Assembly (NCBI RefSeq): GCF_025685545.1
Contig: NZ_JAGSYC010000026.1
Location: 682,001 to 746,000, forward strand
Origin: Granulicella paludicola
GTDB lineage: Bacteria > Acidobacteriota > Terriglobia > Terriglobales > Acidobacteriaceae
Length of the DNA: 64,000 bases
Direction: 5' to 3'
Shown: positions 2,806 through 59,033 of the stretch, piece after piece
How the letters are laid out: every line of letters begins with the position of its first letter
How positions within the stretch are numbered: the stretch's first letter is position 1
Translations under genes and position numbers: made by a program
Notes under the pieces: model-generated
Told to the model about the DNA's origin: nothing
The model's input: the letters and a program-made list of their open reading frames with translations, nothing else
Database searches by the model: none

Positions 2806-2855
2806 AGCATAGCTCCGAAGCTAACTTTCCGTAAGTACGTACCTTGAGGTAAGCT
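2806..2855. promoter_or_regulatory. Divergent promoters and candidate HxlR operator
   Basis: The qorB/hxlR intergenic region contains the palindrome GTACGTAC at 2835-2842, embedded in GTAAGTACGTACCTT. On the minus strand a -10-like TATGCT (2811-2806) faces qorB. On the plus strand TAAGCT (2850-2855) sits 7 nt before the regulator ATG. The palindrome therefore lies between the -35 and -10 zones of the regulator and near the -35 zone of qorB, which fits repression of both genes by the HxlR protein. HxlR proteins commonly bind short GTA/TAC dyads (family knowledge); this specific assignment is inference. Confidence 0.55.
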
Positions 2856-2862
2856 AGCGCTT

Positions 2863-3291
2863 ATGAAGCGGCCTACTGCAAAACTCATCTCCGGCAGGCA
2901 GAAGTTCCGCAAAGGCAATGTGTACGACGTGAACTGTCCCTCCAGAGCTGTGCTGGAACATGTGACCTCGCGCTGGGGATCGCTTGTGCTGCTTGTATTA
3001 CTTGAGGGCACACAGCGCTTCAGCGAGTTGGTTCGCGGTATTGGTGGTGTCAGCGAGAAAATGCTTGCGCAGTCGCTCAAGGCGCTTGAAGCAGATGGTC
3101 TCGTTGCGCGTCGAGTCTACCCCACCGTGCCTCCAAAAGTGGAGTATAGCCTTACGAAGATGGGCAGCGAGGTCGCTGTGCACCTACGCACGCTGACGGA
3201 TTGGGTAGAGGACAGCATCTCTGAGGTCATGCGTAATCGCTCGCGGGTTGAGGCCAATAAGTCAGCGAAGCCGCAACCCATGCAGGCATAA
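2863..3291 (+). CDS. HxlR-family winged-helix regulator, QorR/YodB-like
   Basis: A 142-residue HxlR (DUF24) transcription factor. The winged helix covers about residues 22-115: recognition region FSELVRGIGGVSEKMLAQ near 50-67, wing around RRVYPTVPPKVEY, and the dimer helix after LTDWVED. Cys25 in the NCPSR motif is the conserved position used by several HxlR proteins to sense quinones or other electrophiles. The divergent qorB-like quinone reductase is the natural target. TAAGCT ends 7 nt before the ATG and the nearest GAGG is 13 nt away, so translation may be leaderless. Function as a redox-responsive repressor is inferred from the pairing and the Cys. Confidence 0.85.
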   Translation: MKRPTAKLISGRQKFRKGNVYDVNCPSRAVLEHVTSRWGSLVLLVLLEGTQRFSELVRGIGGVSEKMLAQSLKALEADGLVARRVYPTVPPKVEYSLTKMGSEVAVHLRTLTDWVEDSISEVMRNRSRVEANKSAKPQPMQA

Positions 3292-3337
3292 GGCTCATTC
3301 AAATCGAGCCCACCGAACGTGCATAAAATAGAAGATC

Positions 3338-4405
3338 ATGAACCGTCTTCTGCGCGTCATCGCTGTGCTCTTCGTCTCCGCTCCTCTTGCAACAACGGCC
3401 TGGTCTCAGGCCACTGCGAACCTCGCGAATCAAGGCTGGTATGCGGACCCCGAGGTGCATGTCTACGGCGACCAATACTGGATTTATCCCACAACCTCTG
3501 ATCCTGGTAGTGAGGCACCGAAGCAGACGACGTTCAATCCTTTGCAGCAGCATCTGCGAAGTCGCGCGGTCATTCATCCCGTGTACCTGTTGCAGACCTC
3601 GCTCGATGCGCTCTTTTCGACCGACCTTGTGCATTGGACGAAGCATCCTAATGTGCTGGATGTGAGGAACGTTTCGTGGGCCTCGTATGCCATCTGGGCG
3701 CCGACGGCGATTCATCTTAATGGCAAGTACTATCTCTTCTTTGCAGCGAACGACATACAGAAGAACGATAAGGAGCCTGGCGGCATCGGTGTCGCTGTCA
3801 GCGACAGGCCGGAAGGCCCGTTCATCGACGCGCTTGGAAAGCCGCTGATCGGCGAGTTTCACAATGGAGCGCAGCCCATCGATCCCATGGTCTTCAAGGA
3901 TGACGATGGCACGCTGTACTTCTACTACGGCGGCCAGGGGCACTGTAACGTCGCGCGCCTCGCGCCGGATCTGAAGAGCGTGATTCCGATGAAGGACGGT
4001 TCGATGTACAAGGAGATTACACCGGAGCACTACGTCGAAGGTCCGTTCGTGCTCAAACGCAAAGGCGTCTATTACTTCATGTGGTCTGAGGGTGATTGGG
4101 GTGGCTCAAGCTATGGTGTGGCGTATGCGAAGAGCTCCAGCCCGACTGGCCCGTTCGTGCGTGTCGGGAAGATCCTGCAGAGGGACCCAGCAATGGCGAA
4201 TGGTCCAGGTCATCATTCGGTGCTGCAGATTCCCGGCACGGATGAGTGGTACATCGTCTATCACCGGCATCCGCTCGGCACGACAGGCATCAATGAGCGC
4301 GTTTTAGCGATCGACCGTATGGAGTTCGACGCGGATGGAAATATCCTGCCGGTGAAGATGACCGCGGAAGGTGTCGGAGAGCGGATGCTTCGTGTGAAGA
4401 AGTAA
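3338..4405 (+). CDS. Secreted glycoside hydrolase family 43 protein
   Basis: A 355-residue protein with an N-terminal signal peptide (residues 1-24, cleavage after TTAWSQ) followed by a five-bladed propeller typical of GH43 arabinofuranosidases and xylosidases. The proposed catalytic base is Asp37 in YADPEVHV, the pKa-modulating Asp is in QPIDPMVFKDDDG near 188, and the proposed acid Glu is in HYVEGPFVLKRKG near 235. All three lie in the usual order and context. It probably acts outside the cytoplasm on plant arabinoxylan or related side chains. Family GH43 hosts many specificities, so the substrate is not fixed. TAAAAT at 3324-3329 sits 8 nt before the ATG, a leaderless-type start. Confidence 0.88.
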   Translation: MNRLLRVIAVLFVSAPLATTAWSQATANLANQGWYADPEVHVYGDQYWIYPTTSDPGSEAPKQTTFNPLQQHLRSRAVIHPVYLLQTSLDALFSTDLVHWTKHPNVLDVRNVSWASYAIWAPTAIHLNGKYYLFFAANDIQKNDKEPGGIGVAVSDRPEGPFIDALGKPLIGEFHNGAQPIDPMVFKDDDGTLYFYYGGQGHCNVARLAPDLKSVIPMKDGSMYKEITPEHYVEGPFVLKRKGVYYFMWSEGDWGGSSYGVAYAKSSSPTGPFVRVGKILQRDPAMANGPGHHSVLQIPGTDEWYIVYHRHPLGTTGINERVLAIDRMEFDADGNILPVKMTAEGVGERMLRVKK

Positions 4406-4429
4406 TTCTGGCGGAGCTCTGGAGTGACC

Positions 4430-4435
4430 TATACT
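4430..4435 (+). promoter_or_regulatory. -10-like TATACT upstream of the DUF5995 gene
   Basis: TATACT lies 26 nt upstream of the ATG at 4462, within CCTATACTGAGCGC. The same TATACT word precedes three other genes in the window. No clear -35 is visible. Confidence 0.4.
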
Positions 4436-4461
4436 GAGCGCACTTTCCCGGAGGCCTTCGC

Positions 4462-5193: not shown

Positions 5194-5221
5194 AGCCCAG
5201 TAGCGGTGCAGTCAGGTAGTG

Positions 5222-8340: not shown

Positions 8341-8466
8341 CTCGGTGGAATGCACGTACTTGCAGTTCTCGTTTCTTCGGGCTGCTTAAAGGCGGCACTT
8401 GCAGAATAAGCCAAATCATTGCTGTGCGCAGAGTTCTTTGGATGCGGCGAATACACTGACTGATGT

Positions 8467-9525
8467 ATGTCGAAAGCAGTGAAACAGACGCAGCCGCACC
8501 TCGATCCGGAGACCTTCCGCGAGCGATTGGGACGATGGTATGGAGAGAGCGCCCGCAAGCTGCCGTGGCGCGGTGTGAATGATCCCTATGCGACCTGGCT
8601 CAGCGAGGTGATGCTGCAGCAAACGCGCGTAGCGACGGTCATCGAGCGCTACACGGAGTTCATGGAGAAGTTCCCCACTGTGCAGACTCTAGCTGCCGGG
8701 GAGGAGAGCGACGTGCTAGCGCTTTGGAGTGGCCTTGGCTACTACCGGCGCGCCCGGATGCTGCACAAGGGAGCGCAATACGTGGTGCAGAAGCTTGGGG
8801 GCGTGATGCCTCGGACGGCCGCTGAACTACTGGCTTTACCGGGTGTCGGTGATTACACCTCTGCGGCGATTGCGAGCATTGCCTTCGGCGAAAGCGTGGC
8901 TGTGCTCGATGGAAACGTTGAGCGCGTACTACTTCGCATCTTGGGTGAGGCCGAAGACAAAAGTGGAGCGGCAAAGAAGCGACTAACGGCGACGGCGCAA
9001 AGCCTGATGCCGTTGCGGGGGGACAAGGGGAGAAACACTGCTGGCGACCACAACCAGGCCATGATGGAGCTGGGTGCGACGATCTGCCTGCCGCGCGGGC
9101 CGCTGTGCCTGCAGTGTCCCGTGATGGAACTATGCCGCACGCGCGGCGAACATCCCACCGCCAAGCGGGAGACCATGCGGCAGAAGCGAGTCGCGCATCT
9201 GCTGGAGACGCGGACGCGGCATGGGGCGACCGAGGTGCTGCTGGAGCGCCGAGCAGCCGACGCCAGCCTGATGGCAGGCATGTTGGAGCTGCCGCCGCTG
9301 TCGCTCGATGCGGTGGATGCGATGGAGCCGGTCGTGCAGGTCAAGCACTCCATCACGAACACGAACTACCAGGTGGATGTCTTCTCGGGTAAGGTGCTGC
9401 GCAAGGAAATTCCGGCGGCGAAGAGTGCACTGTTGTGGGTGGGCGTGAAGGAGTTGAACGAGGTGCCGATCACCGGGCTCGCACGCAAGGTCTTGGTGAA
9501 GGTTGGGGTGCTGGCAAAGCGTTGA
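8467..9525 (+). CDS. mutY: A/G-specific adenine glycosylase MutY
   Basis: A 352-residue DNA repair enzyme that removes adenine mispaired with 8-oxoguanine. Seen: catalytic Glu in SEVMLQQTRV near 43, helix-hairpin-helix LPGVGDYTSAAI near 122, catalytic Asp in VLDGNVERVL near 145, and the [4Fe-4S] loop with Cys spacing C-X6-C-X2-C-X5-C (CLPRGPLCLQCPVMELC) near 200-216. The C-terminal 120 residues fit the MutT-like domain that recognises 8-oxoG. Length is typical. The ATG has no ribosome site; TACACT at 8452-8457 lies 9 nt upstream, a possible leaderless start. Confidence 0.93.
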   Translation: MSKAVKQTQPHLDPETFRERLGRWYGESARKLPWRGVNDPYATWLSEVMLQQTRVATVIERYTEFMEKFPTVQTLAAGEESDVLALWSGLGYYRRARMLHKGAQYVVQKLGGVMPRTAAELLALPGVGDYTSAAIASIAFGESVAVLDGNVERVLLRILGEAEDKSGAAKKRLTATAQSLMPLRGDKGRNTAGDHNQAMMELGATICLPRGPLCLQCPVMELCRTRGEHPTAKRETMRQKRVAHLLETRTRHGATEVLLERRAADASLMAGMLELPPLSLDAVDAMEPVVQVKHSITNTNYQVDVFSGKVLRKEIPAAKSALLWVGVKELNEVPITGLARKVLVKVGVLAKR

Positions 9526-11322: not shown

Positions 11323-12507
11323 CTACTGCGGTGACGGCTCCAGTGTGAATGTCGCAGCTTTGCTTTCGTTGCCGTTGGCATCCACCGCCGTAATGCCGTA
11401 GCGATAACGAGCGGAGGGTTCGGCGGTAGCGTCATGAAAGCCCGGTTCGGATACCGGTTTAGCGGTCAGGCGAGTTTTTACATCATCACCGCTGAGCATT
11501 TCGCGGTAGACGTTATAACCGCTTAGTGGCGCAGCCAGCGAGGCAGTGATGCCGGCATCGCTAACGGGTTGCCAGATCAGGTCGACGGCAAAGTGGGAGC
11601 CGTCGGGAGGTGCAAAACCTGTTGCTTCGACGCCGGTCGGTGCCGAGGGTGCGTACTTCGGCTGTAAGGTGAAGTCGATGGCTGTAGACAGATCGCTGCG
11701 TATCTCTACGGTCCGTTTATCGAACGCCAGAAGGATACGGCGTATCGCTGTGTAGCGGTAGGGTGTACCTGAGGTTACGGAGCTGTCGAGCGTACGCCCT
11801 TCTTTGGAATTGGCGTTGAGCCAGAGGTCGTCCGACTTTGGCACGGACGGAAGTGGACCTTTGGATCTCGCCGTTGTCGTGGCAGGCTTTGTCGCAAGGG
11901 CGACGCGGTGCAGAAGGATATCGCTCGTGGAAGGATCGCGGGTCCACTGCAACCAGATGCCGCTGCGCGTGCCGTCTGCGTGCAGGTCGGCAATGGGCGC
12001 GGGGGCTGTACCGGCGGCGGTAAAGGCCGGGTTTGACTGGCCGGCGGACTTGCCTGCCTTGTTCAGGAACTCGACACGGTAAGTAAGCAGGCGAGGCGAG
12101 CCGCTGGCCAGTGCTTCTGGAAGCGTCTCATGCCAGGTGAAAGTTGCATGGTCAGCCTCGGTGAGCGGCGGCGCCAGGGTGGCGATGATGGTGCAGGGCG
12201 CCGGTCTTATCTCGCGACAGACGGTGCCGTTCAGAAACATCGGCTTGTGATGGCGAGGGTCGGAGAGCGGAAGCTTGTCTGTGGACAGGTGCGGCACGGT
12301 GAAGCTGAGTTCGATGAGGTCGCCGGTGCGGCTGACAGTGAGATCGGTGACCGGTTGTGGCAGGTTCAACGAGGGTGAACGCGGTGGACCCGGACTGGCG
12401 CAGCCGAATATCGCCGTGAACGCCAGAAAAGTATAAAGAAATTTGCTTGGGCTTTGATGGGGAGCGAAAGCGCGCGCCAATCGCTGCTTCTGGCAGAAAA
12501 AGTCCAT
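11323..12507 (-). CDS. Putative lipoprotein with fibronectin type III-like domains
   Basis: A 394-residue protein. After a basic N-terminus it has a hydrophobic stretch, FLYTFLAFTAIFGCASPG, ending in a lipobox-like FGC (Cys near 36), so it is probably a lipoprotein. The rest is beta-rich with two or three FN3-like repeats: one near 50-150, one near 165-265 (WLQWTRDPSTSDILLHRV), and one near 285-390 with YNVYREM and ending in YRYGITAVDANGNES. Such proteins bind other surface components; no enzyme motif is seen. TACGCT lies 7 nt before ATG 12507 and no ribosome site is visible. Function is unknown. Confidence 0.7.
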   Translation of the reverse strand: MDFFCQKQRLARAFAPHQSPSKFLYTFLAFTAIFGCASPGPPRSPSLNLPQPVTDLTVSRTGDLIELSFTVPHLSTDKLPLSDPRHHKPMFLNGTVCREIRPAPCTIIATLAPPLTEADHATFTWHETLPEALASGSPRLLTYRVEFLNKAGKSAGQSNPAFTAAGTAPAPIADLHADGTRSGIWLQWTRDPSTSDILLHRVALATKPATTTARSKGPLPSVPKSDDLWLNANSKEGRTLDSSVTSGTPYRYTAIRRILLAFDKRTVEIRSDLSTAIDFTLQPKYAPSAPTGVEATGFAPPDGSHFAVDLIWQPVSDAGITASLAAPLSGYNVYREMLSGDDVKTRLTAKPVSEPGFHDATAEPSARYRYGITAVDANGNESKAATFTLEPSPQ

Positions 12508-12738
12508 GGAATTGAGCGTAGCATTTCAACCATGTCAATCTGAATGACTTTCAGCGACGGAGACATCGGGTTTTCGGGCGCAAGGAACAAACGGATTTTT
12601 TTGTATGGGTGCGGGCAACGCGGCAAAGTCTGGATTTTTAGACCCTGATACATCTATTCGCAGCCCGTAAACGTCCTTTTATAAGAAGCAGCATGTTGGT
12701 GGAAGATAGCAGCAGAGTTGCACTGGAGGGTTTGCCCC

Positions 12739-13600: not shown

Positions 13601-13605
13601 CGTGC

Positions 13606-23855: not shown

Positions 23856-23970
23856 AATGCCGTTAGTCTACTCGCATGATGAGCACGGAAGCCCTTATTT
23901 ATGTGGGCTCTCGTGACACTTTCGTAGTATTTGGGCGGATTGTGAAGGACCCAAAATGGGAGGGCAATAT

Positions 23971-24397
23971 GTGCAGGCGACCCGTAAGCCGAATTTTGTT
24001 TTAGACGATCATTCCTCTAGGCGGAGCATTACTGCGCCGCTCAAGCAACCTACCCGCAGGTTTCGGACGAACTGACACGGTCCTGTGCGCAACGGGCCGT
24101 TACGCGGCGCCATCCCCGTATGGACAACGCTCTCCCTGCCTATTTGGTCTTGCTCCGTGTGGGGTTTACCGTGCCGCTGCTGTTACCAGCAGTGCGGTGG
24201 GCTCTTACCCCACCGTTTCACCCTTACCTCTGATTGCTCAAAGGCGGTTTCTTTTCTGTTGCACTGGCCGTCTTCCAGCCTTGACGCTGGAATCCCGGAC
24301 GTTATCCGGCACACTGCCCTATGGAGTTCGGACTTTCCTCCCCCAGCCGAGGCGCTTGCACGTCCGGCTGGCAGCGATCATCCGGTCGCCTGCACAC
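23971..24397 (-). ncRNA. rnpB: RNase P RNA (class A)
   Basis: About 427 nt on the minus strand, the catalytic RNA that trims the 5' ends of pre-tRNAs. The P1 helix is formed by GTGCAGGCGACC at the 5' side (minus strand from 24395) and GGTCGCCTGCAC at the 3' side (ending 23971). The conserved CRI segment GAGGAAAGTCCG, the CRIV block GGGTGAAACGGTGGGGTAAG and the 3' ATTCGGCTTACGGGT region are all present in order. Ends are set by the P1 arms and could shift by a few nt. A -10-like TACACT (minus strand, 24407-24402) lies just upstream of the 5' end. Confidence 0.95.
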
Positions 24398-27023: not shown

Positions 27024-27049
27024 CGTTACGGCGAAGCTAAACTGGTGGG

Positions 27050-31108: not shown

Positions 31109-31202
31109 CGGTCTTAGTGTATGCAAGACGCGTTGATCTCGCGAGGTCCGAGCGACGATAGCGATGTCGCGTAGACTGTTGCAGATGGCTGGAAGAGATC
31201 AC

Positions 31203-40683: not shown

Positions 40684-40693
40684 GCTGGTGGGT

Positions 40694-41836
40694 ATGAAGC
40701 GAGTCCGGTTAGCGGCGGTGTTGCTGTTGTTGGTGGGCGTGGCGCAGGCGGAGAAGAAGCCGAAGTTGCGGATCGTCGATGCGAATGCTCGTGTCGGTGT
40801 GGTGACGCGGGTCTTTCATCCCGCGGCAGCTCGCAACTGGCGTGGTGCCGCTGTGCAGGAGCTGGATGCGGTGATCTGGTATCCGGCGAGCGATACCGCG
40901 ATTGAGACGAAGCAGTTTGTGGGTGATGCGGAGCATCCGCTGTTTGTTGCCGGCAGCGCGATGCCCCATGCAGACTTTGCTCCTCACCTGGAGCGTCTGC
41001 CGCTGATCCTGATCTCGCATGGAACAGGCGGCAGTGCTTTGCAGATGGCATGGCTGGGTACGGCGCTGGCGCGGGCCGGGTATATCGCGGTGGCCGTCGA
41101 TCATCCCGGCAATAACGCGAATGGCAAGCTCACGCCGGAAGGCTTTGCGCTGTGGTGGGAGCGGGCGACGGATTTGTCCAACGTGCTCGACGCGTTGCTA
41201 AAGGACGAGACGTTTGGGGTGCGGATAGACTCGACGCGCATTGCGGCTGCGGGTTACTCGCTGGGCGGCTACACGGTGCTGGAACTCGCCGGGGCGCAGA
41301 CGGATATTGCGCAGTTCTTCGATCGCTGCCGACCCCATCCCGAAGACAAAGCGGGGAAGCCGACCGACGATGCTGCGGTGTGCCATGTGCCGGAGATGCG
41401 TGGGATGGGTAGTGTCGACGACATTCTCCAAGCCGTGAGGAAGACGAGTCGCGAGAGCCTGGCGCGATCGGGGGAGAGCTATCGCGATCCCCGGGTAAAG
41501 GCGGTGTTTGCGATTGCTCCTGCGCTAGGATTCACGGAAACCCCTGAGAGCTTGCATGCCATTCGCCTGCCGGTGGAGATGGTGGTGGGGACGGAAGATC
41601 GCATCGCGCCTGCGAATGAGAATGCGGATTATCTGCGAGCCAACCTGAAGGCCGGGCGCGAGACGACGCTGCCGGGCGTTAGCCACTACACGTTTCTAGA
41701 TACCTGCACTCCGGCTGGTGTGAGCGCGCTGCCAATGTACTGCACCGAGGCCCCAGGGATTGAGCGGGACGCGGTTCATGCCAGGGTAGCGGCAACGGCG
41801 GTGACATTCTTCGATCGCGAACTGCGATGGCGCTAA
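40694..41836 (+). CDS. Secreted alpha/beta hydrolase, dienelactone-hydrolase-like
   Basis: A 380-residue exported hydrolase with a signal peptide (residues 1-18, ending GVAQA). The alpha/beta fold carries an oxyanion-hole strand LPLILISHGTGGS near 105 and the nucleophile elbow GYSLGGYT near 189 (Ser). The acid Asp may lie in VVGTEDRIAP near 300 and the base His in GVSHYTFLD near 335. Similar proteins are annotated as platelet-activating-factor acetylhydrolase-like or dienelactone hydrolases; substrate unknown. TAAGCT overlapping the photolyase stop region lies 6 nt before the ATG, a leaderless-type start. Confidence 0.82.
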   Translation: MKRVRLAAVLLLLVGVAQAEKKPKLRIVDANARVGVVTRVFHPAAARNWRGAAVQELDAVIWYPASDTAIETKQFVGDAEHPLFVAGSAMPHADFAPHLERLPLILISHGTGGSALQMAWLGTALARAGYIAVAVDHPGNNANGKLTPEGFALWWERATDLSNVLDALLKDETFGVRIDSTRIAAAGYSLGGYTVLELAGAQTDIAQFFDRCRPHPEDKAGKPTDDAAVCHVPEMRGMGSVDDILQAVRKTSRESLARSGESYRDPRVKAVFAIAPALGFTETPESLHAIRLPVEMVVGTEDRIAPANENADYLRANLKAGRETTLPGVSHYTFLDTCTPAGVSALPMYCTEAPGIERDAVHARVAATAVTFFDRELRWR

Positions 41837-42338: not shown

Positions 42339-43589
42339 TTAGTCGACGCGGCAAATGAGGCACTTGAGATAGCGTGTCTCGGGCAGAGTGAGAATCTCTG
42401 GGTGATCGGGAGCGGCAGCGTGCGTCTCCAGCAGCTGTACGCGACGACCGGCATCGGTGGCAGCGGCTGCGACGATCGCGGTGAACTCCTCGAGCGAGAC
42501 ATGGTGCGAGCAGGAGTTGGTGATGAGCGTTCCGCCGGGGTTGAGCAGACGCATGGCGCGCAGGTTGAGCTCTTTATACCCTCGCAGGGCGCCCTCAGTG
42601 GCGCGCTTGCTCTTGGCGAAGGCTGGAGGATCGAGCACGATGGCGTCGAATCGGTCGGCCTCTGCGTTGGATTTCTGGGCGATGTCGTCCAGGTGGCGAA
42701 GGTATTCGAACGCGTCGGCTTCCACCCAGTCGGTCTCGCAGCGAGCGGCGAGTTCTGGGTTCAGCAGCAGATTGCGGTCGGCGGCTTCCAGAGCGGAACG
42801 GCTGGCGTCAACGCCGGTCACGCTGGAACAGATCTTGGCGAGGTGAAGCGCGAAACCGCCTTGATACGTGCAGATGTCGAGAGCTTTCTCCGTGCGACCT
42901 GAGGCCGCAACGATGCGCGCGGCGGCTGCGTAGTTCAGTCGCTGGTCGAGGAAGGCGCCGGTCTTCTGGCCGCTGGCCGCGTCGTACTGGAAATGCAGAT
43001 CGTTGAGTGTAAAGGTGGTCGTCGTGGGTGCAAGCTCGTTACTGGCGAAGAGCGGTTCACTTGAAGGTGCGGGAAGCTGTTCGAGCTCGCGGATGCGAGG
43101 GTCGGGACGCTCCCAGATCGTCAGTGGCTCACCGTTCGGAGCCAGGCCCGCGCGAAGGGCTTCGACCAGGACCTTGCGCACGTCATCCTGCGCAGTGCCT
43201 TGTGTGAGGAGCTGCGCAAGCACGAGATCGTTGTAGCGGTCAGCAATGATGCCGGGAAGATTATCGGCCTCGGAAAAGATGAGGCGGTGCGCGGTGGTGT
43301 TGGGTGCGACGGCTTGGCGCAGAGCGATGGCGGCGTCAATCCGCTGGCGCAGGTCCGCGAGGTACTGCTCGCGAGTGAGCGCAGGCGTATGCGAGACGAG
43401 ACGTCCAGCAATCTGCGAGGCGTTCGAGTAAAGTGCGGTACCGAGGGGAAGCTCGCGGCGGTCGCTTATCGTGACGAGCGATCCGGCTTCCAGGCCGTCG
43501 GTTTTGCTTTCGACATCGGAGCGATAGATCCAAAGGTGGCCCGCACGAAGGCGGTCAGCGGCGCGGAGGGTGATGCGAAGGGTAGACAT
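42339..43589 (-). CDS. rlmI: RlmI-type 23S rRNA cytosine methyltransferase
   Basis: A 416-residue SAM-dependent methyltransferase. The N-terminal PUA domain (about 1-75, HLWIYRSDVES) is followed by a linker and a catalytic Rossmann domain: QYDAASGQKTGAFLDQRLN near 205, motif I LDICTYQGGFALHLAK near 240, and motif IV DPPAFAKSK near 310, with a CSHHVSLEEF stretch near 355. In E. coli RlmI makes m5C1962 in 23S rRNA. TACACT lies 9 nt before ATG 43589. The frame stays open upstream to 44291 through other genes, but family alignment starts at this ATG. Confidence 0.88.
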   Translation of the reverse strand: MSTLRITLRAADRLRAGHLWIYRSDVESKTDGLEAGSLVTISDRRELPLGTALYSNASQIAGRLVSHTPALTREQYLADLRQRIDAAIALRQAVAPNTTAHRLIFSEADNLPGIIADRYNDLVLAQLLTQGTAQDDVRKVLVEALRAGLAPNGEPLTIWERPDPRIRELEQLPAPSSEPLFASNELAPTTTTFTLNDLHFQYDAASGQKTGAFLDQRLNYAAAARIVAASGRTEKALDICTYQGGFALHLAKICSSVTGVDASRSALEAADRNLLLNPELAARCETDWVEADAFEYLRHLDDIAQKSNAEADRFDAIVLDPPAFAKSKRATEGALRGYKELNLRAMRLLNPGGTLITNSCSHHVSLEEFTAIVAAAATDAGRRVQLLETHAAAPDHPEILTLPETRYLKCLICRVD

Positions 43590-43626
43590 CTCTCTACCAG
43601 TGTAGCGGTGGCCGGTGAAGCTCGCG

Positions 43627-44127
43627 CTACGGCAGTGTTGGTACGGGGATGTTGAGTAGCTCCGAGATAGCGGTGACGGCGAGGCTGTGGTCCTCGCGCT
43701 GCACAAGACCGCTGACGATGACGGAGCCGACAAGGCCTGAGCCTGCGATGACAATCGGAAAACCGCCGCCATCGGTAGCGTAGTCAGAGAGAAAGAGGCC
43801 GTGTCGGGCTTCAAGCGTCTGGTTATTGAGCTCGAGTTTGCGACCGACAGCGTAGCTACTGGTGCCGAATCGACGGACAACGTTCCGCTTGCGGCGCACC
43901 CAGTCGGCCTGTCCTGGGGTAGCAAGACCGTTGGGCCCGAGCGTGACGGCAGTGAAAAGGATGTGGCCGGCGAGGTCGACTTCGACGGTGCCGCCCGCGT
44001 TGAGAGCGGTGAGTTTCGAGCGCAGCAGCGAACCAAGTTGCCAGGCGACATCCGCGTTGAAGGAAGGAAAACGCAGAAGGTTCTCTTGCTGCGTAATGAG
44101 GGCGAGGTCGGCGGCGGGGTTGGACAT
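43627..44127 (-). CDS. UPF0303 family protein (heme-degrading-domain-like)
   Basis: A 166-residue protein of UPF0303 (DUF967/HbpS-like fold). Recognisable: FPSFNADVAWQLGSLLRSKL near 21, KRNVVRRFGTSSYAVGRKL near 80, and the Gly-rich DYATDGGGFPIVIAGSGLVGSVIVSGL near 112-138. A role in heme or cofactor binding is suggested for the fold but not proven. TACACT on the minus strand (44140-44135) lies exactly 7 nt before the ATG, with no ribosome site, a textbook leaderless layout. It lies between the CGNR regulator and RlmI on the same strand. Confidence 0.85.
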   Translation of the reverse strand: MSNPAADLALITQQENLLRFPSFNADVAWQLGSLLRSKLTALNAGGTVEVDLAGHILFTAVTLGPNGLATPGQADWVRRKRNVVRRFGTSSYAVGRKLELNNQTLEARHGLFLSDYATDGGGFPIVIAGSGLVGSVIVSGLVQREDHSLAVTAISELLNIPVPTLP

Positions 44128-44173
44128 GAAGCAGAGTGTAGAGCAGTCGCGGTAGAGGAGAGAAGAAAAAAGC

Positions 44174-45862: not shown

Positions 45863-45879
45863 GTAGGTAAAATGGACGG

Positions 45880-47595
45880 ATGGCGCGGACGAAAGCGAAT
45901 CCGGATGTTGTTGAGACGTCATTGACGGGGCTTGGCCTGTTGGGTACGCCGATCTTCAACAAAGGCACGGCGTTCCCTGAGAGCGAGCGCGATGCCTTTA
46001 GTCTCCACGGGCTGCTGCCTCCACAGGTAGGGACACTCGAGCAGCAGGTGGCGCGACGGTTGAAGGCGTTCCATGCCATTGCGCCGGCAGATGACCAAAG
46101 CACGGAAGCACAGTTTGCTCGCTACACGTTTATGCGCGATCTGCAGGACGTGAACGAGACGCTTTTCTATGCGCTGATTACGCAGAACGTGGCAGAGATG
46201 CTGCCGGTGGTCTACACGCCCTCAGTGGGCGTTGGCTGCGAGCGGTTTTCGGAGATCTGGCGGAAGCCGCGCGGCGTGTTCCTGAGCTATCCGAACATGG
46301 ACCGCATCGAGCGCATCCTGGGCCATCCGCGCTACGACGGCGTGCGCTGTATCGTAGTGTCGGACGGCGAGCGCATTCTTGGTCTCGGCGATCAGGGCGC
46401 GGGCGGCATGGGTATCCCGATCGGCAAGCTGGCGCTTTATACCGCACTGGCGGGGATTCATCCGCTGCAGTGCCTGCCGGTATTTCTGGATGTAGGTACG
46501 GACAACATCGACCGCATCACCGACCCGCTGTACCTCGGTTGGAAGGAGCGCCGCGTCCGTGGCGCGGAGTATGACGCTTTCGTTGACCGTTTCGTAAAGG
46601 TGGTGAAGCGTCGTTGGCCGCATGTGCTGCTGCAGTGGGAAGACTTTGCTGGAGCGAACGCGGCAAAGCTGCTGGGTCGATATCGCGACACGCTGCCGAG
46701 TTTTAATGACGATATTCAGGGCACGGCAGCGGTGGCGGTCGCGACCGTGCTGGCAGCGGTGAATGTCACCGGCGTGCCCTTGCCGCAGCAACGCTTTGTG
46801 GTGTTTGGATTCGGCTCGGCTGGGCTTGGTATTGCGGCACTGCTGACGCAGGCGCTGATGAAGGCGGGGTTGAACGAGGTCGAGGCGCGACGCTGCTTCT
46901 GGGCTGTCGATAAAGATGGTCTGCTGGTGGAGTGGGCGCAGGGAGTTCGGCCGGAGCAGGGAGCGTATACGCGAACCCAGGCCGAGGTGGAGGGCTGGGT
47001 CCGCGATGGCGACGGACGTATCAGTCTGCTGGAGGTAGTGCAGCGTGTCAAACCGACCGTGCTGCTGGGGGTTTCGGGGCAGCCGGGAGCGTTCAGTGAG
47101 GATGTGGTGCGGGCGATGGCTGGTGGAGTGTCGCGGCCTGCGATTCTGCCACTGTCGAACCCGACAAGTAAGTGCGAAGCTGCGCCAGACGACTTGATCC
47201 GTTGGAGCGAAGGCCGGGCGATTGTGGGTACGGGCAGCCCTTTCCCCCCCGTGAAATTCGCAGGGCGCGAGATGCGGATCGCGCAGACGAATAACTCCTA
47301 CATCTTCCCGGGACTCGCGCTCGGCATCGTGTGCTCCAAGGCCAGGCGGGTAAGCGACGGCATGATGATGGCTGCTGCCGAGGCGCTCGCTCGTCTGTCG
47401 CCGACCCGCACGGATAGCGCGGGGGGTCTGTTACCGCCGCTGGAGTCGTTGCGGAAGGTTTCAACCAGTGTGGCGGTGGCAGTGGGGCGCCAGGCGGCAC
47501 TGGAAGGGCTCGCTGCCGTAAAGGGCGAAAGCTTTGTGGAAGCCTTAAGAGCAAGCGTGTGGGAGCCGATATATCGTCCCTATAAACGTCGTTAG
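45880..47595 (+). CDS. maeA: NAD-dependent malic enzyme
   Basis: A 571-residue enzyme that oxidatively decarboxylates malate to pyruvate. Large-type malic enzyme features: the Tyr-containing YTPSVGVGCERFSEIWRKPRG region near 110, GDQGAGGMGIPIGKLALY near 170 with Lys, and ESDGRRLWNG-like metal region replaced here by VLLQWEDFAGANAAKLL near 245 then FNDDIQGTAAVAVA near 275. The NAD fold is FGFGSAGLGIAALL near 308, and SNPTSKCEA near 428. TAAAAT (45868-45873) ends 6 nt before the ATG, a leaderless-type start just after a hairpin. It is monocistronic. Confidence 0.93.
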   Translation: MARTKANPDVVETSLTGLGLLGTPIFNKGTAFPESERDAFSLHGLLPPQVGTLEQQVARRLKAFHAIAPADDQSTEAQFARYTFMRDLQDVNETLFYALITQNVAEMLPVVYTPSVGVGCERFSEIWRKPRGVFLSYPNMDRIERILGHPRYDGVRCIVVSDGERILGLGDQGAGGMGIPIGKLALYTALAGIHPLQCLPVFLDVGTDNIDRITDPLYLGWKERRVRGAEYDAFVDRFVKVVKRRWPHVLLQWEDFAGANAAKLLGRYRDTLPSFNDDIQGTAAVAVATVLAAVNVTGVPLPQQRFVVFGFGSAGLGIAALLTQALMKAGLNEVEARRCFWAVDKDGLLVEWAQGVRPEQGAYTRTQAEVEGWVRDGDGRISLLEVVQRVKPTVLLGVSGQPGAFSEDVVRAMAGGVSRPAILPLSNPTSKCEAAPDDLIRWSEGRAIVGTGSPFPPVKFAGREMRIAQTNNSYIFPGLALGIVCSKARRVSDGMMMAAAEALARLSPTRTDSAGGLLPPLESLRKVSTSVAVAVGRQAALEGLAAVKGESFVEALRASVWEPIYRPYKRR

Positions 47596-47629: not shown

Positions 47630-49396
47630 TCAATACTTGTAGACGCGGGCCTCCCACGCGGCCAGGTGTAGCGTCGTCGTGTCCGCCTCGGTGGTTACAC
47701 TGTTTGCCAGCAGAAGCCTTCCGCTCGCCATCGGCAACGTGTACGTCACAGGCGTCTTCGACATATTGAGTACGACAAGATAATGGTCGTTGTTCAGTGT
47801 GCGCGTATAGGCGAAGACCTGCGCGTGCGCGGGGTCCAAGTCTTTGTAATCACCATAGACCAGCGCCGGAGACTTATGGCGCAGAGCAATCATCTGCTGC
47901 GTGTAGTGGTAAATCGAGTTTTTGTCGGCGAGTTCTTGTGCGGCGTTGATCTCCACGTAGTTCGGGTTCACAGCGAGCCATGGCTTCGCTGCCGTCGTGA
48001 AGCCCGCATTCGCGGAGGCGTTCCACTGCATCGGCGTACGCGCATTGTCGCGGCTGGTGTGCCGCAGGTTCTTGATGAAAGAGTCAACAGGAACATGGCC
48101 AGTTAGTACATCGGCCTTATACGCGTTCTTCACTTCGATGTCGTCGAATTGGCTGATGTCGGTGAAGGGGTAGTTGGTCATACCGAGTTCGTCGCCTTGA
48201 TAAAGAAACGGCGTTCCGCGCATGGTGAGCAGCAGTGTGGCTATGAGCTTGGCGGAGGGAACGCGGAACTGGGGTGAGTCGTCGCCGAAGCTGGAGACGA
48301 GGCGCGGGTTGTCGTGGTTTGAGAGGAACACCGTGTCCCAGCTATGGGCGTCCAGCGCCTTCGCGTGGTCGGCGTAGATGGCTTTGAACGCAGGCAGCGT
48401 CCACGTCTTGTATTCGTGCCCGTCGCGGTTGATGCGGACAGCATCGAAGTTGAAGATCATGTTGAGCTCATGTCGGCGTTCATCTACGATCTTCGGGGTT
48501 CCGGCGAGATCTATCCCTAAAGCTTCGCCCACGGTCATGGTGTCGTACTTTGAGAGGGCCTCGCGATTCATCTCCTGCAGGTACTCATCGCGGTGCGGGC
48601 CGTTGGCTAGGGTAGGCACGTAGTTCTGATCGAGGGGCAGGTCGGGAAGGCCGACGGGCTTGGAAATAAGTGGGATCACATCCATGCGGAAGCCATCGAC
48701 ACCCTTGTCGAGCCAGAAGCGCATAAGCGAATAAACCTCCTGGCGGACCTTCGGATTATCCCAGTTCAGGTCAGGCTGCTTGGCGGCGAACAGATGCAAA
48801 TAAAACTGGTTAGTGGTGGGATCGAGCTGCCACGCCGAGCCGGAGAAGAAGCTGGGCCAGTTGTTCGGTGGGAGCGGATGGGAAGGGTCGGCGGGATTCG
48901 GCTTGCCATCGCGCCAGAAGTAGAAGTCGCGATGGGGGTTGTCCTTGGAGAGGCGTGATTGCTTGAACCACTCATGCTCGTCAGAGGTATGGTTCACCAC
49001 AAGGTCGATGATGAGGCGCATGTGGCGCTTGTGGATACCGGCGAGCAGGCGGTCGAAGTCGGCCATAGTGCCGAACTCTTTCATTACCTTGCGATAGTCA
49101 CGAATGTCGTAGCCGTTGTCGGCGTTGGGCGAGTCATAATGCGGAGACAGCCAGACAACGTTGATCCCCAGCTGCTGCAGATAGTCGAGCTTGGCAGTGA
49201 TCCCGTTGAGGTCGCCGACACCGTCGCCGTTGGAATCATTAAAGGAACGGGGATAGACCTGATAAACGACAGCGTCCTTCCACCAGGCGGTGCGATAGCC
49301 GTTGATAAGGGTGGTGGGTGCAGTCACGGTCTGAGCGTGGCAAAGAAGGGGTAAAGCAGATGCGAGCGAGAGTACGGCGGCAGCAAGAGTTTTCAT
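47630..49396 (-). CDS. Secreted GH13 alpha-glucosidase
   Basis: A 588-residue enzyme of glycoside hydrolase family 13, oligo-1,6-glucosidase / alpha-glucosidase type. The signal peptide is residues 1-21. Seen: VVNHTSDEHEW near 135 (region I), GFRMDVIPLI with nucleophile Asp near 232 (region II), VGEALG with acid Glu near 292 (region III), and FLSNHDNPRLVSSFG near 359 (region IV). All catalytic residues are in place. It probably cleaves malto- or isomalto-oligosaccharides or sucrose outside the cytoplasm. TACCAT lies 8 nt before the ATG. Confidence 0.92.
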   Translation of the reverse strand: MKTLAAAVLSLASALPLLCHAQTVTAPTTLINGYRTAWWKDAVVYQVYPRSFNDSNGDGVGDLNGITAKLDYLQQLGINVVWLSPHYDSPNADNGYDIRDYRKVMKEFGTMADFDRLLAGIHKRHMRLIIDLVVNHTSDEHEWFKQSRLSKDNPHRDFYFWRDGKPNPADPSHPLPPNNWPSFFSGSAWQLDPTTNQFYLHLFAAKQPDLNWDNPKVRQEVYSLMRFWLDKGVDGFRMDVIPLISKPVGLPDLPLDQNYVPTLANGPHRDEYLQEMNREALSKYDTMTVGEALGIDLAGTPKIVDERRHELNMIFNFDAVRINRDGHEYKTWTLPAFKAIYADHAKALDAHSWDTVFLSNHDNPRLVSSFGDDSPQFRVPSAKLIATLLLTMRGTPFLYQGDELGMTNYPFTDISQFDDIEVKNAYKADVLTGHVPVDSFIKNLRHTSRDNARTPMQWNASANAGFTTAAKPWLAVNPNYVEINAAQELADKNSIYHYTQQMIALRHKSPALVYGDYKDLDPAHAQVFAYTRTLNNDHYLVVLNMSKTPVTYTLPMASGRLLLANSVTTEADTTTLHLAAWEARVYKY

Positions 49397-49441
49397 CGCT
49401 GCCGATGGTACATCTCGCTCGCATGAATGGTGAAATGTCTC

Positions 49442-49768: not shown

Positions 49769-49854
49769 AAAAGTTGTCTCCAGCTGTTTGAGATGCACGG
49801 TGTGGTCTCCGCGTTGGGCTGGGTCTATGGGATTCAAGCCTAGAATTGAGTCTT

Positions 49855-51072
49855 ATGGCGGATAGAACGAACGAGTTTGATGTGGTGGTGCTGGGCGCAG
49901 GCGCGGCGGGAATGATGTGCGCCTTCGAAGCCGGGAGGCGTGGCCGGCGGGTGCTGCTGCTGGACAACGGCGACAAGGTCGGGCGAAAGATTCTGATCTC
50001 GGGAGGAGGCCGCTGCAACTTCACGAATATCCATGCGAAGCCGGAGAACTACCTGAGCGAAAATCCCCACTTCGCGCGGTCGGCGATGGCGCGGTTTACT
50101 CCAGCAGACATGGTCGCGCTGGTGCAAAAACACGGGATCAGGTATCACGAGAAAACGTTAGGGCAGCTGTTCTGCGATGACTCGGCACGGCAGGTCGTCG
50201 TACTTCTGGAAACGGAGTGTAAAGAGGCTGGAGTGGTTACGCGGTGCGGGGTGAATGTGGGAACGGTCACTCGCGAAGCAATCGGATTCAAGTTGACGAC
50301 CGATGCGGGCGAGCTTCATTGCGGGGCTGTAGTCGTGGCGACGGGCGGATTGTCGATCCCCAAGATGGGTGCGACGGCCTTTGGGTATGAGCTGGCTAAG
50401 CAGTTCGGGCATAGCGTCATCGACCCGCGTGCCGGACTGGTGCCGCTCGTGTTCGGAGTGGAGGACCGCGAGCGCTGGTGCGATCTGGCAGGGGTGGCGT
50501 TTGAAGTGGTGGCGCGGGGAGAAAGTCCAACCAAGGACGACAAGCCCAAGAAAAAGCTGAGGACGCCGGAGTTCCGCGAGGCATTGTTGGTGACCCATCG
50601 TGGCGTGAGCGGGCCAGCAGTATTGCAGGCTTCTTCGTACTGGCGGCCGGGAGGGACCGTGACCTTCGATGTGGCGCCGGGCCGCGAGGTGTTCCGACCC
50701 CTGCTTGATAAGAATGCGCGTCGCGACGAGGCAAGTTTGTTTGCTGCGTTACGAGGGGTGTTGCCGCAGCGGATGGCAGAGCGCTGGGTGGCGACTCTGC
50801 CGGAACATGACTGGACGAACGCCGGGCTCGCGCGGCTGGAAAGCGAGCTACATGCCTGGACGCTGCGACCGGACGGGAGCGAGGGCTTCGCGAAAGCCGA
50901 GGTCACGGTGGGCGGAGTGAACACAGATGAGCTGAACTCGCAGACCATGGAGAGCAAGCGTGTGAAGGGGCTCTACCTCATCGGCGAGGTAGTGGATGTG
51001 ACGGGCTGGCTTGGTGGTTACAACTTCCAGTGGGCCTGGGCGAGTGCCGTGGCTGCTGGACGAAGCCTATAG
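49855..51072 (+). CDS. BaiN/YhiN-like flavoprotein (HI0933 family)
   Basis: A 405-residue FAD-binding oxidoreductase. The Rossmann start is VVVLGAGAAGMMCAFEAGRRG near 11, followed by the signature ISGGGRCNFTNIH near 48, a Cys-containing GGLSIPKMGATAFGYELAK near 165-183, and a C-terminal FAD stretch LYLIGEVVDVTGWLGGYNFQWAWASA near 372-397. Length matches the family. Proposed roles include reductive steps on steroid-like or flavin substrates (BaiN in clostridia), but most members are uncharacterised. TAGAAT lies 8 nt before ATG 49855. Confidence 0.9.
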   Translation: MADRTNEFDVVVLGAGAAGMMCAFEAGRRGRRVLLLDNGDKVGRKILISGGGRCNFTNIHAKPENYLSENPHFARSAMARFTPADMVALVQKHGIRYHEKTLGQLFCDDSARQVVVLLETECKEAGVVTRCGVNVGTVTREAIGFKLTTDAGELHCGAVVVATGGLSIPKMGATAFGYELAKQFGHSVIDPRAGLVPLVFGVEDRERWCDLAGVAFEVVARGESPTKDDKPKKKLRTPEFREALLVTHRGVSGPAVLQASSYWRPGGTVTFDVAPGREVFRPLLDKNARRDEASLFAALRGVLPQRMAERWVATLPEHDWTNAGLARLESELHAWTLRPDGSEGFAKAEVTVGGVNTDELNSQTMESKRVKGLYLIGEVVDVTGWLGGYNFQWAWASAVAAGRSL

Positions 51073-51081: not shown

Positions 51082-51588
51082 CTAGTCGTGAACAGAGTCT
51101 TTCGCCTGCTCTGCGGGGATGGGCGCGCCGGGCAAACGAGGCATGATCCATCGCGAGATGAAGACGAGTACAAAGTACGCGACAACGGCTTCGAGCGCGA
51201 GTAGCGGAAGTCCCGCTCCGCAAGCCATGCCGATACCCGTCACGAGCCAGATCGTAGCCGCTGTGGTAAGTCCTTTGACGCGGTCGTCGTGGACGAAGAT
51301 CAGTCCCGCGCCGATGAAGCCGATGCCGGTGACAATCTGTGCGGCGACGCGCGAGGGATCGAGGACGACGCGGCCATCAACAAGGACATCGCTGAAGCCG
51401 TACTTGGAGATAAGCACGAAGAGAGCGGCGGAGGTGCCGACGACGGTGTAGGTGCGCAGGCCTGCGCTCTTGTGGCGGATTTCACGTTCAATTCCGATGA
51501 TGGCCGAGAGCACGAACGCTGCAGCGAGCTCCGCAATCTGAAGAAGACCCTGCCCGTTGCTATTGCCCGCGCTACCCCAAAGATGCAT
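51082..51588 (-). CDS. MgtC/SapB family membrane protein
   Basis: A 168-residue inner-membrane protein with four or five helices. MgtC signature regions: [33 protein letters not shown] near 22-54 with the GIERE motif, and [30 protein letters not shown] near 86-115. MgtC proteins help survive low Mg2+ and modulate F-ATPase or phosphate signalling; the soluble C-terminal regulatory domain of some members is absent here. TACAAT lies 6 nt before the ATG, within the 21-nt gap after the giant surface gene, suggesting its own promoter. Confidence 0.9.
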
Positions 51589-51609
51589 GGAGAGATTGTA
51601 GACCTGCGA

Positions 51610-56623: not shown

Positions 56624-56680
56624 GGGTGTCCTCTCGCCTAAGATACGTTGTCCTGAAAGGATGGTTCCTGGCGCCGTCAA

Positions 56681-58039
56681 CTAGCAGCGAACAATGTTCG
56701 TCGACTTTAGCCCGCGCGTGGCGTTACGCGTATCGATGAATAGGCGACTCGCAGTGACGAGTGCTGGGATGTCATATGCGCTGTGATTGGTCGCAAGCAG
56801 GACGCAGTCAAACTCAGGTATCTGCTCGAGTGGCGTGGACGTGGTCTTCAAAGAGTAGTGACGTCCTGCATCGACTGACGGGAAGTAAGGATCGTTATAG
56901 GCGACGTGCGCTCCGGCCTGCTGAAACAGGGAGAAGAGCGTAAGTGCAGGGGATTCGCGCAGGTCGTCGATATCGCGCTTGTAGGCAATGCCAAGCAGGA
57001 GCACGCGCTTGCCTTGAAGCGTACCGAGCGCGCGGCGCGCAGTATCGACGACAAAGGCGGGCATCGCTTCATTGACCTCGCCGGCGAGTTCGATGAAGCG
57101 CGTCGGTTGATTGAACTGCCGGGCACGCCAGCTCAGGTAGAACGGATCGACCGGAATGCAGTGACCGCCAATTCCAGGGCCGGGGTAGAACGGTTGGAAG
57201 CCGAAGGGCTTGGTAGATGCCGCATCGATAACCTCCCAGATGTCTATGCCCATCGCGAGGCACAGCTGCTTCAGCTCGTTGACCAGCGCGATGTTGACTC
57301 CGCGGTAGATGTTTTCAAGCAGTTTGGTCATCTCCGCCGCGTCGGGCGAGGACATGGGAATCGTGCGGTCAAAGATGGCTCCATAGAGCGCGCAGGCTGC
57401 AGCGGTCGCCGTCGCACTGGTGCCACCGATGACCTTCGGGATCTCGCGGCGGGGAGTGGTTGTGTTCCCGGGGTCTTCGCGCTCCGGACTGAAGGCGACA
57501 AGGTTGCCGAGAAGGATCGTGGAGGGCTCGGCTTCGGTGACTGAATCGTCGTCGGTGTGCGGCCGCAAGCCGACCGGGCCATGTTGTTGCAGCGCCGGCA
57601 CGACAAGTTCACGCGTGGTGCCGGGATACGTGGTGCTCTCGAGCACAATCAACTGCCCAGGGAAGCTGTGGGGAGCGACGGCTTCGACCGTGTGTTGAAC
57701 ATAGCTAAGGTCTGGCTCGTGTCCTGCGCCCAGCGGGGTGGGAACGCAGATGAGCACAGCGTCACACTCGCGGAGCAGAGAAAAATCACTGGTCGCGCTG
57801 AATCCTGCAGCTCGCGCGGCGGCGATGTCCGCTGAAGGAATGCGGTGGATATAACTGATGCCGTCTTGCAGGCTGTCGACCTTGGCTTGATCGATGTCGA
57901 AGCCAGTGACGGTGAAACCTGCTTCCACGAAGAGCAGCGTGAGCGGCAGGCCGACATAACCGAGGCCGATGATGCCGAGGCGGGTTTCGCGGGCATCGAC
58001 GCGGGCTGTCCATTCAGCGAGTGTATGCAAACGCTTCAT
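56681..58039 (-). CDS. UDP-N-acetyl-D-hexosamine 6-dehydrogenase (WecC/TviB type)
   Basis: A 452-residue enzyme that oxidises a UDP-HexNAc at C6 to the uronic acid using two NAD+. Seen: N-terminal Rossmann motif GIIGLGYVGLPLTLLF near 26, PTPLGAGHEPDL near 105, the Lys-containing TKLLENIYRGVNIALVNEL near 240, and the catalytic Cys in GPGIGGHCIPVDPFYLSWRA near 285. A C-terminal domain has LLLGIAYKRDIDDLRESPA near 342. The start codon overlaps the upstream epimerase stop as ATGA, so translation is coupled. Together they can make UDP-GalNAcA-type precursors for envelope polysaccharide. Confidence 0.88.
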   Translation of the reverse strand: MKRLHTLAEWTARVDARETRLGIIGLGYVGLPLTLLFVEAGFTVTGFDIDQAKVDSLQDGISYIHRIPSADIAAARAAGFSATSDFSLLRECDAVLICVPTPLGAGHEPDLSYVQHTVEAVAPHSFPGQLIVLESTTYPGTTRELVVPALQQHGPVGLRPHTDDDSVTEAEPSTILLGNLVAFSPEREDPGNTTTPRREIPKVIGGTSATATAAACALYGAIFDRTIPMSSPDAAEMTKLLENIYRGVNIALVNELKQLCLAMGIDIWEVIDAASTKPFGFQPFYPGPGIGGHCIPVDPFYLSWRARQFNQPTRFIELAGEVNEAMPAFVVDTARRALGTLQGKRVLLLGIAYKRDIDDLRESPALTLFSLFQQAGAHVAYNDPYFPSVDAGRHYSLKTTSTPLEQIPEFDCVLLATNHSAYDIPALVTASRLFIDTRNATRGLKSTNIVRC

Positions 58040-58998
58040 CGTACTCGCGATTCCTGAAGTTGAGCGGCCAGCTGCTCGCGGTGCCATGCGACGGTCCGTG
58101 CGAGGCCATCTTCAAAGGACACGAGCGGCTCGTAGCCAAATGCCTCCTTCGCTGCAGAGATGTCGGCCAGGGACGTGTCGATGTCCCCGCTGCGACGTTC
58201 CGTGTTGACAGGCGGAGCCGTCTGCCCGGTCAGCCTGGCAAGCACCTCGTAGGTGTGGTTCAGCGAGAAGCGTTCGCCGCACGCGACGTTGAAGACGCGG
58301 CCCGCGACATTTGCTGCAGGAGCATTCAATGCGAGCAGGTTCGCGGAGACGGCGTTCGCGATGTAGGTGAAGTCACGCGATTGTGTGCCGTCGCCCTGCA
58401 TCACGCAGGGTTCGTTCCGCAGCATGTTCAGTGCCCACTTCGCAATGACGCCGGAGTAAGGCGAGTCCGGTGCCTGCCGCGGTCCGAAGATGTTGAAGTA
58501 GCGCAGGCACACCGTCTCCATGCCATACACCCGTGCGTAGCTCTGCATGTACAGCTCGCCGGTGAGCTTCTGCACGGGGTACGGCGCGATGGGTTCGGGC
58601 TTCATCGTCTCTACACGTGGAAAGCCGGGCTGATTACCGTAGGCGGAGCTTGACGCCGCGTAGAGCACACGCTTTATACCGGCTGCACGCGCACCCTCAA
58701 GCACGTTGAAGGTGCCCTCGATATTTGCGTTATGCGAGGGGCGCGGTTCCTTCACGCTGCGTGGCACGCTGGGCAGCGCGCCTTGGTGCAGGATGGCGTC
58801 CACGCCGCGGCAGGCACTGACGACGGCGGAAGCGTCGGCCAGATTGGCCTCGATGAAATCCACGCCTGAGGGAATATTCGAGAGCTTGCCGGTCGCGAGA
58901 CTGTCAAAGCCACGGACGGCGTGGCCCTGCGCGAGCAAGGCCTCTGCGAGATGTGAGCCGATGAAGCCAGCGACGCCGGTGATGAGATAAGTAGCCAA
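58036..58998 (-). CDS. UDP-sugar 4-epimerase (TviC/WbpP-like extended SDR)
   Basis: A 320-residue NAD-dependent epimerase. GVAGFIGSHLAEALLAQG near 8 (GxxGxxG), SSSAYG near 116-121, and catalytic YPVQK near 141-145 are present. The best fit is a UDP-GlcNAc/GlcNAcA 4-epimerase. The start is TTG 58998, preceded at 7 nt by TAAACT, with no ribosome site, so this may be a leaderless TTG start. It is transcribed first and coupled (ATGA overlap, 58039-58036) to the dehydrogenase. No glycosyltransferase lies beside the pair. UDP-galactose 4-epimerase is an alternative. Confidence 0.85.
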   Translation of the reverse strand: MATYLITGVAGFIGSHLAEALLAQGHAVRGFDSLATGKLSNIPSGVDFIEANLADASAVVSACRGVDAILHQGALPSVPRSVKEPRPSHNANIEGTFNVLEGARAAGIKRVLYAASSSAYGNQPGFPRVETMKPEPIAPYPVQKLTGELYMQSYARVYGMETVCLRYFNIFGPRQAPDSPYSGVIAKWALNMLRNEPCVMQGDGTQSRDFTYIANAVSANLLALNAPAANVAGRVFNVACGERFSLNHTYEVLARLTGQTAPPVNTERRSGDIDTSLADISAAKEAFGYEPLVSFEDGLARTVAWHREQLAAQLQESRVR

Positions 58999-59033
58999 GA
59001 AGACTAGTTTACCGTGCGGCGCCGCTGAGAATC

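Follow-up and report, generated by a model that had tools for sequence, protein, structure and literature searches.

Acidobacteria are abundant in soil. All three genomes of this phylum considered by Zheng et al. 2011 (PMC3160421; this and the papers named below are cited from excerpts) contain predicted leaderless genes, with shares of 9.7-19.4% (mean 13.3%) and a TANNNT hexamer about 12 bp before the start. In Deinococcus-Thermus, Zhong et al. 2025 (PMC12340547) describe a -10 box about 6-7 bp before the open reading frame (ORF) at nearly a third of genes, with RNA-seq data; TACACT is the commonest form, transcription rises after the box, and the section headings of that paper state that the box matters for expression. 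Leaderless transcripts of Actinobacteria (Mycobacterium tuberculosis, PMC3898074; Streptomyces lividans, PMC8079986; Propionibacterium acnes, PMC3848588) likewise combine a TANNNT box with a start codon at the 5' end. Their starts are 67.8% ATG and 32.2% GTG in S. lividans, and 68% AUG, 29% GUG and 3% UUG in P. acnes; non-AUG leaderless starts are, according to an excerpted review, much weaker in Escherichia coli. Here we analyse gene starts of the acidobacterium Granulicella paludicola at which 6-9 nt separate a TANNNT hexamer from the start codon (TA-led starts). They were noticed in a stretch of 64,000 nt (assembly GCF_025685545.1, contig NZ_JAGSYC010000026.1, positions 682,001-746,000, forward strand), referred to below as the window, in whose coordinates all positions are given.

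The TA-led starts are a known kind of gene start and not a new mechanism; conservation, the lack of a detected -35 box and one conserved TTG start are added to it here. Both leaderless genes in Acidobacteria (PMC3160421) and leaderless UUG starts (PMC3848588) are already in print, as the excerpts of these papers show. The starts agree with those of Zheng et al. in hexamer, distance, phylum and approximate share of genes; what is added, from sequence only, is conservation in orthologs, the lack of a detectable -35 box, flanking G residues and variation of the start codon across species. With the Deinococcus-Thermus genes they share the prevalence of TACACT, the distance of about 6-7 bp and retention in orthologs, whereas their share of genes is lower, about 11-17%. 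With the actinobacterial transcripts they share the TANNNT box and a start codon at the (here predicted) 5' end, and with those of P. acnes also the occasional UUG start. However, the share of GTG (17/181) is below the 29-32% of S. lividans and P. acnes, and the TTGACn -35 box of S. lividans leaderless promoters (PMC8079986) has no detected counterpart. A literature search on leaderless genes of Acidobacteria, transcription start sites and transcriptomes of the genus gave no transcript-start map among the matches listed.

Enrichment and conservation of the box

Enrichment was analysed in the window plus 800 kb of the same genome (864 kb of 4.96 Mb, 637 gene starts). Gene starts were called from the coding signal and a start-codon prior, without upstream motifs, and the chance level was taken from spacers of 15-49 nt and from 200 per-sequence shuffles. 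TANNNT at 6-9 nt precedes 93 of the 637 starts, against 22 expected from the control spacers and 27.3 +/- 4.7 (highest value 42) in the shuffles. Per position, the rate is 36.5 per 1000 at gene starts vs 3.0 at in-frame ATGs inside genes. Nine other hexamer patterns, AT-rich ones among them, gave nothing comparable at 6-9 nt, the largest excess being 33 vs 28. The commonest spacer is 6 nt (35 starts), followed by 7 nt (26), with 14 starts at 8 nt and 18 at 9 nt; with this peak, the start codon stands where transcription should begin. After subtraction of chance matches about 11% of the genes are TA-led (some 71, or roughly one gene in nine), and 17% (109/637) if the box may help to pick the start. 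These shares are only approximate, since a choice of starts that relies on coding signal and favours ATG is apt to cut into signal peptides and misplaces the start of some genes.

The preliminary description of the window had listed sixteen starts of this type, estimated that about 2 of 58 would arise by chance, and named a lack of genome-wide enrichment as one outcome that would refute it. The hexamer is indeed present 6-9 nt upstream of all sixteen, the estimate was correct (22 in 637 is 3.4% per gene), and the enrichment is strong throughout the 864 kb and thus not local to the window. The start positions fared less uniformly: twelve coincide with the coding-only choice, whereas a downstream codon is preferred for the genes at 31185, 12507, 23855 and 49396. 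At 31185 and 12507 the TA-led start is backed by relatives although the coding-only choice differs.

Orthologs were required to have at least 45% identity and an N-terminal match, and a box was scored 6-9 nt before any start within 15 codons. It is kept in 52 of the 63 ortholog instances of the sixteen genes, compared with 5 of 63 when a control spacing is used. The count is 4 of 58 for 33 other window genes and 0 of 8 for two dropped candidates, described below. In 23 ortholog pairs that are TA-led in both members, 87% of the inner hexamer bases are identical, compared with 31% of the upstream bases and a fraction of 0.42 of the bases between box and start; the inner bases were not used for selecting the pairs, and composition alone would give about 35% (hand calculation). 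By this comparison the box is under selection. Similarly, in pairs with agreeing starts, genes TA-led in G. paludicola are also TA-led in 15 of 21 cases in the genome G007 and in 8 of 10 in G010, compared with 5 of 78 and 2 of 32, respectively, for genes that are not.

Promoter-like context and predicted site of initiation

In 91 of the 93 TA-led starts (two near the sequence end were dropped) the consensus is TANAMT, position 4 favouring A and position 5 favouring A or C; TACACT (11/91), TAGAAT (10/91) and TACAAT (9/91) are the commonest forms. Sites resembling the Shine-Dalgarno (SD) sequence precede 9 of these 91 starts vs 210 of the 546 others (p = 2e-8), and the 16S rRNA has kept the anti-SD sequence CCTCC. 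An mRNA that begins at its start codon has no room for an SD site.

The surroundings of the box were analysed in a pool of parts of three genomes of the genus (G. paludicola, G007 and G010) with 181 TA-led starts, some of them orthologous to each other. G is overrepresented two bases before the hexamer (47% vs 30% at control hexamers, p = 1e-4) and two bases after it (45% vs 27%, p = 2e-5), that is, at positions -14 and -5 if the hexamer is taken as -12 to -7. It is the commonest base at both positions for every spacer length, so that the flanking Gs are tied to the hexamer and not to the start codon. Both positions are presumably contacted by housekeeping-type sigma factors. Extended -10 promoters have TGN before the box; here G at -14 is enriched but T at -15 is not (12% vs 19%). 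No -35 box was detected 15-19 nt upstream of the 181 boxes: the best match to TTGACA averages 2.66 of 6 bases vs 2.72 +/- 0.07 in 30 shuffles, and ortholog identity at the corresponding columns is just 0.17-0.30.

If the hexamer were an RNA feature, with AT-rich upstream sequence aiding translation that lacks an SD site, the scarcity of SD sites at TA-led genes would be expected. However, other AT-rich hexamers show no comparable enrichment, the flanking Gs follow the hexamer, and conservation of the stretch from box to start is low (0.42); we consider this explanation highly improbable.

The genomic neighbourhood of the boxes bears on another simple explanation, namely that the stop codons TAA and TAG of preceding genes yield TANNNT by chance and produce a part of the signal. 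This does hold at 40694 and for 4 of the 93 matches in G. paludicola; no such case occurs among 47 in G007 and 41 in G010. On the other hand, in G. paludicola the box is overrepresented at genes whose upstream neighbour has the opposite orientation (50/256, control 11), and TACACT and TACAAT, which contain neither TAA nor TAG, are among the commonest hexamers. On these counts a stop-codon origin was rejected as the general explanation and retained for 40694 only; even as a partial source of the signal it is hardly credible. Downstream of a co-directional gene, the box was found in this genome in 13 of 55 cases at gaps of 0-30 nt (control 2), in 16 of 95 at 31-100 nt (control 3) and in 14 of 200 at longer gaps (control 6.5). 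At starts overlapped by a co-directional upstream gene it was found in 0 of 30 cases in G. paludicola and in 0 of 62 in the three genomes, where about 0.7 would be expected from the background and about 4-15 at the rate of the other classes (7-24%).

The best explanation of the TA-led starts is that they are housekeeping-type promoters of which just a -10 box is left (TANAMT, preferably with G at -14 and -5), joined directly to the start codon. The ribosome, probably as a 70S particle with initiator tRNA, would begin at the 5'-terminal codon, which would be AUG in most cases, GUG in some and UUG in one conserved gene or more. We assign this reading a probability of about 0.9, judging from the box, its spacing, promoter-like flanks, conservation and scarcity of SD sites; where precisely the 5' end lies and how the ribosome enters are inferred. 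As a prediction, the leaderless reading with a -10 box directly upstream, proposed in the preliminary description, gains from the enrichment, the conservation and the few SD sites.

A related possibility is that the -10 boxes are real but that most mRNAs have a leader of 1-4 nt, as RNA polymerase prefers to start with a purine. Many spacers measure 8 nt (14 of 93) or 9 nt (18 of 93), a purine occupies the seventh position in 13 of the 18 starts with a 9 nt spacer, and the base before ATG gives no firm backing for a start exactly at A. However, if transcription starts 7 nt past the box, the peak at 6-7 nt (61/93) places the A of ATG at about +1 or +2, and short leaders as the rule seem rather unlikely.

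Several observations weigh against fusion of the box to the start codon. About 22 of the 93 matches are expected by chance, and with the spacers of 8-9 nt (32/93) there would be room for leaders of 1-3 nt. Transcription from the A would predict a pyrimidine before ATG, which in the three pooled genomes is commoner at spacer 7 and not at spacer 6 (57% vs 57%). If all ortholog pairs are counted, TA-led starts are kept in 18 of 36 cases in G007 and 9 of 14 in G010, compared with 13 of 168 and 6 of 60 TA-led orthologs of genes that are not TA-led in G. paludicola. Among the 11 window genes with orthologs to compare, the one at 49855 is unconserved, and one window hexamer, that of 40694, includes a stop codon. 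Moreover, a gene with the box may also lie on a second, longer transcript, particularly if the end of a co-directional gene is at most 60 nt away, as upstream of 3338, 27050, 40694, 43589, 45880, 49396, 51588 and 58998.

TTG starts and a probable change of initiation mode

The preliminary description included two TTG starts, with different outcomes. The gene of a PMT-family mannosyltransferase (31108-29171, minus strand) has TACACT 7 nt before TTG (31106..31121). The box is found in 12 of 14 relatives, with ATG (10) or GTG (2) in the place of TTG. In relatives of this gene (L099-L103, L105, L119) the matches often come in separate pieces, as if variable segments lay between conserved blocks.

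The second TTG is conserved behind its box. It starts the gene of an NAD-dependent epimerase/dehydratase (58998-58036, minus strand) and is preceded by TAAACT at 7 nt (58996..59011). Gene starts were compared across relatives in two sets of loci, covering 30 of 50 and 30 of 42 listed places (a second malic enzyme copy of G010 was left out). All eight close copies of the same genus, window included, keep the box at 6-9 nt, followed by TTG (five copies), GTG (two) or ATG (one). They are 70-77% identical to the window gene, and the copy of G279 has the spacer of the window but GTG instead of TTG. In three species (G000, G002, G010) neither the upstream in-frame sequence nor the first 13 codons contain another start codon, whereas G007 and G009 have an ATG 13 codons upstream. 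Six genomes of the genus (G001, G004, G008, G016, G017, G018) contain only a distant copy (53-58% identity), which starts with ATG and lacks a box at 6-9 nt. We take these copies to be putative paralogs, since G002 holds both kinds. A box at 5-10 nt is present at 14 of 25 loci of other genera (13 with ATG, one with TTG); the remaining 11 comprise six with an SD-like site and five with neither. The TTG start of this gene is well supported by the eight close copies.

Translation of the TTG starts might also depend on ribosomes arriving from the upstream gene, the box being a minor promoter. A co-directional gene ends 35 nt (window) or 36 nt (G010) before the TTG of the epimerase gene. However, in G002 the nearest co-directional frame of at least 100 amino acids ends about 400 nt before the TTG and no other in-frame start codon lies upstream, and in G007 about 435 nt separate the TTG from the end of the nearest called co-directional gene, although here, as in G009, there is the upstream ATG. 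As the box also keeps its position in all eight close copies, such coupling is improbable.

There is little sign that TTG is used generally. In frame behind the strict hexamer are 74 of 935 ATG (7.9%), 11 of 576 GTG (1.9%) and 7 of 442 TTG codons (1.6%), compared with 0.88% of non-start codons and 1.4% of TTG in the +1 frame; the enrichment is strong for ATG, weak for GTG and hardly any for TTG. The case for TTG therefore rests on orthologs. The 181 TA-led starts of the three genomes comprise 157 ATG, 17 GTG and 7 TTG, about three TTG being expected by chance. ATG is commoner there (157/181) than at the remaining starts (905/1176, p = 0.003), so that TTG is a rare exception. As to a restriction of initiation to AUG and GUG (RUG), TTG stands behind the box in five of the eight close copies of the epimerase gene and is not enriched generally, and the 5' ends in question are predicted ones.

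The malic enzyme gene (45880-47595, plus strand; TAAAAT, 6 nt, ATG, 45868..45882) keeps the box in 4 of 5 relatives, and is TA-led at all six loci of the genus examined, window included; the best named matches of the enzyme place the window in the Acidobacteriaceae. Among 24 loci of other genera, one has the box alone and one the box with an SD-like site; a permissive SD-like site precedes a candidate start in 19. The mode of initiation has probably changed between this genus and the others. At two malic enzyme loci of another genus (L247 and L249, from the set L241-L270), TAAAAT stands about 14 nt before ATG, as if there were a short leader.

A broader proposal is that this genus has a complete inherited start module, made up of one -10 box joined to the start codon, which needs no -35 box and tolerates ATG, GTG and TTG, so that ribosomes would begin on a UUG at the 5' end. 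Selection would then keep the TTG in the epimerase gene, perhaps as a brake on expression, and genes would switch between SD-led starts and the module. This is tentative, and we hold it to be somewhat less than an even chance.

Distribution in the phylum and genes of the window

The extent of leaderless genes in Acidobacteria, which the preliminary description had singled out for checking, was approached by counting patterns in 119 genomes of the phylum; the counts refer to patterns anywhere in a genome and not to gene starts. TACACT-N6-7-ATG occurs 1642 times, compared with 1254 for the pattern read backwards; it is above this control in 72 genomes and equal to it in 10. The excess is clear in the families f23, f4, f1 and f47, but not in f21, f32, f7 and f19; in several families the ratio is near 4. 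For TAGAAT the counts are 2563 vs 924, above the control also in f7 and f32; however, TAG is a stop codon, and the backwards control is not neutral. These counts suggest that TA-led starts are widespread but uneven in the phylum, for which leaderless genes had already been predicted in 2011 (PMC3160421, in the excerpts cited), although the control for TAGAAT is not neutral. If this is confirmed, gene prediction in Acidobacteria will require a leaderless model, and the family would be good for studying the change between SD-led and leaderless starts and whether a UUG at the 5' end is translated.

Relatives support 10 of the 16 window genes, including the two with TTG and the malic enzyme gene. 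The gene of a Rieske protein (31185-32345, plus strand) has TAGACT 7 nt before ATG (31172..31187); the box is kept in 10 of 12 relatives, in eight of these three codons further in. Its start diverges from the TTG at 31108 at a distance of 76 bp (31106-31187), and both boxes are kept in most relatives examined. The gene of a family 21 glycosyltransferase (27050-28249, plus strand; TAAACT, 6 nt, ATG, 27038..27052) keeps the box in 9 of 9 relatives, and that of a MutY-like DNA repair protein with HhH-GPD and NUDIX domains (8467-9525, plus strand; TACACT, 9 nt, ATG, 8452..8469) in 2 of 2. TACACT also precedes the ATG of a PUA/SAM methyltransferase gene (43589-42339, minus strand; 9 nt, 43587..43604; 3 of 4 relatives) and of the gene of an HbpS-like protein (44127-43627, minus strand; 7 nt, 44125..44140; 3 of 3 relatives, in one case solely at a GTG that lies 15 codons upstream). 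The protein encoded at 12507-11323 (minus strand; TACGCT, 7 nt, ATG, 12505..12520) has no Pfam match; its start is supported by one relative only (1 of 1), where it is five codons off. The gene of an alpha/beta hydrolase (40694-41836, plus strand; TAAGCT, 7 nt, ATG, 40681..40696) has the box in 2 of 2 relatives, but the TAA of the box is the stop codon of the preceding gene, which makes for weak support. Two relatives, too, have a TAG- or TAA-containing box in this place (40681-40686).

The box of the HI0933-like flavoprotein gene (49855-51072, plus strand; TAGAAT, 8 nt, ATG, 49841..49857) lacks conservation (0 of 4 relatives). Five further genes have no ortholog among the relatives to compare. 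They encode an HxlR-type regulator (2863-3291, plus strand; TAAGCT, 7 nt, ATG, 2850..2865), a family 43 glycosyl hydrolase (3338-4405, plus strand; TAAAAT, 8 nt, ATG, 3324..3340), an alpha-amylase (49396-47630, minus strand; TACCAT, 8 nt, ATG, 49394..49410), an MgtC-family protein (51588-51082, minus strand; TACAAT, 6 nt, ATG, 51586..51600) and a beta-propeller-like protein (23855-21807, minus strand; TAGACT, 9 nt, ATG, 23853..23870). Two other candidates in the window were dropped: for the one at 18775 the resembling gene of G007 is no ortholog, and the box of that at 58030 is found in 0 of 7 relatives. The gap upstream of the start at 23855 contains a bacterial class A RNase P RNA (23969-24393, minus strand, 288.8 bits).

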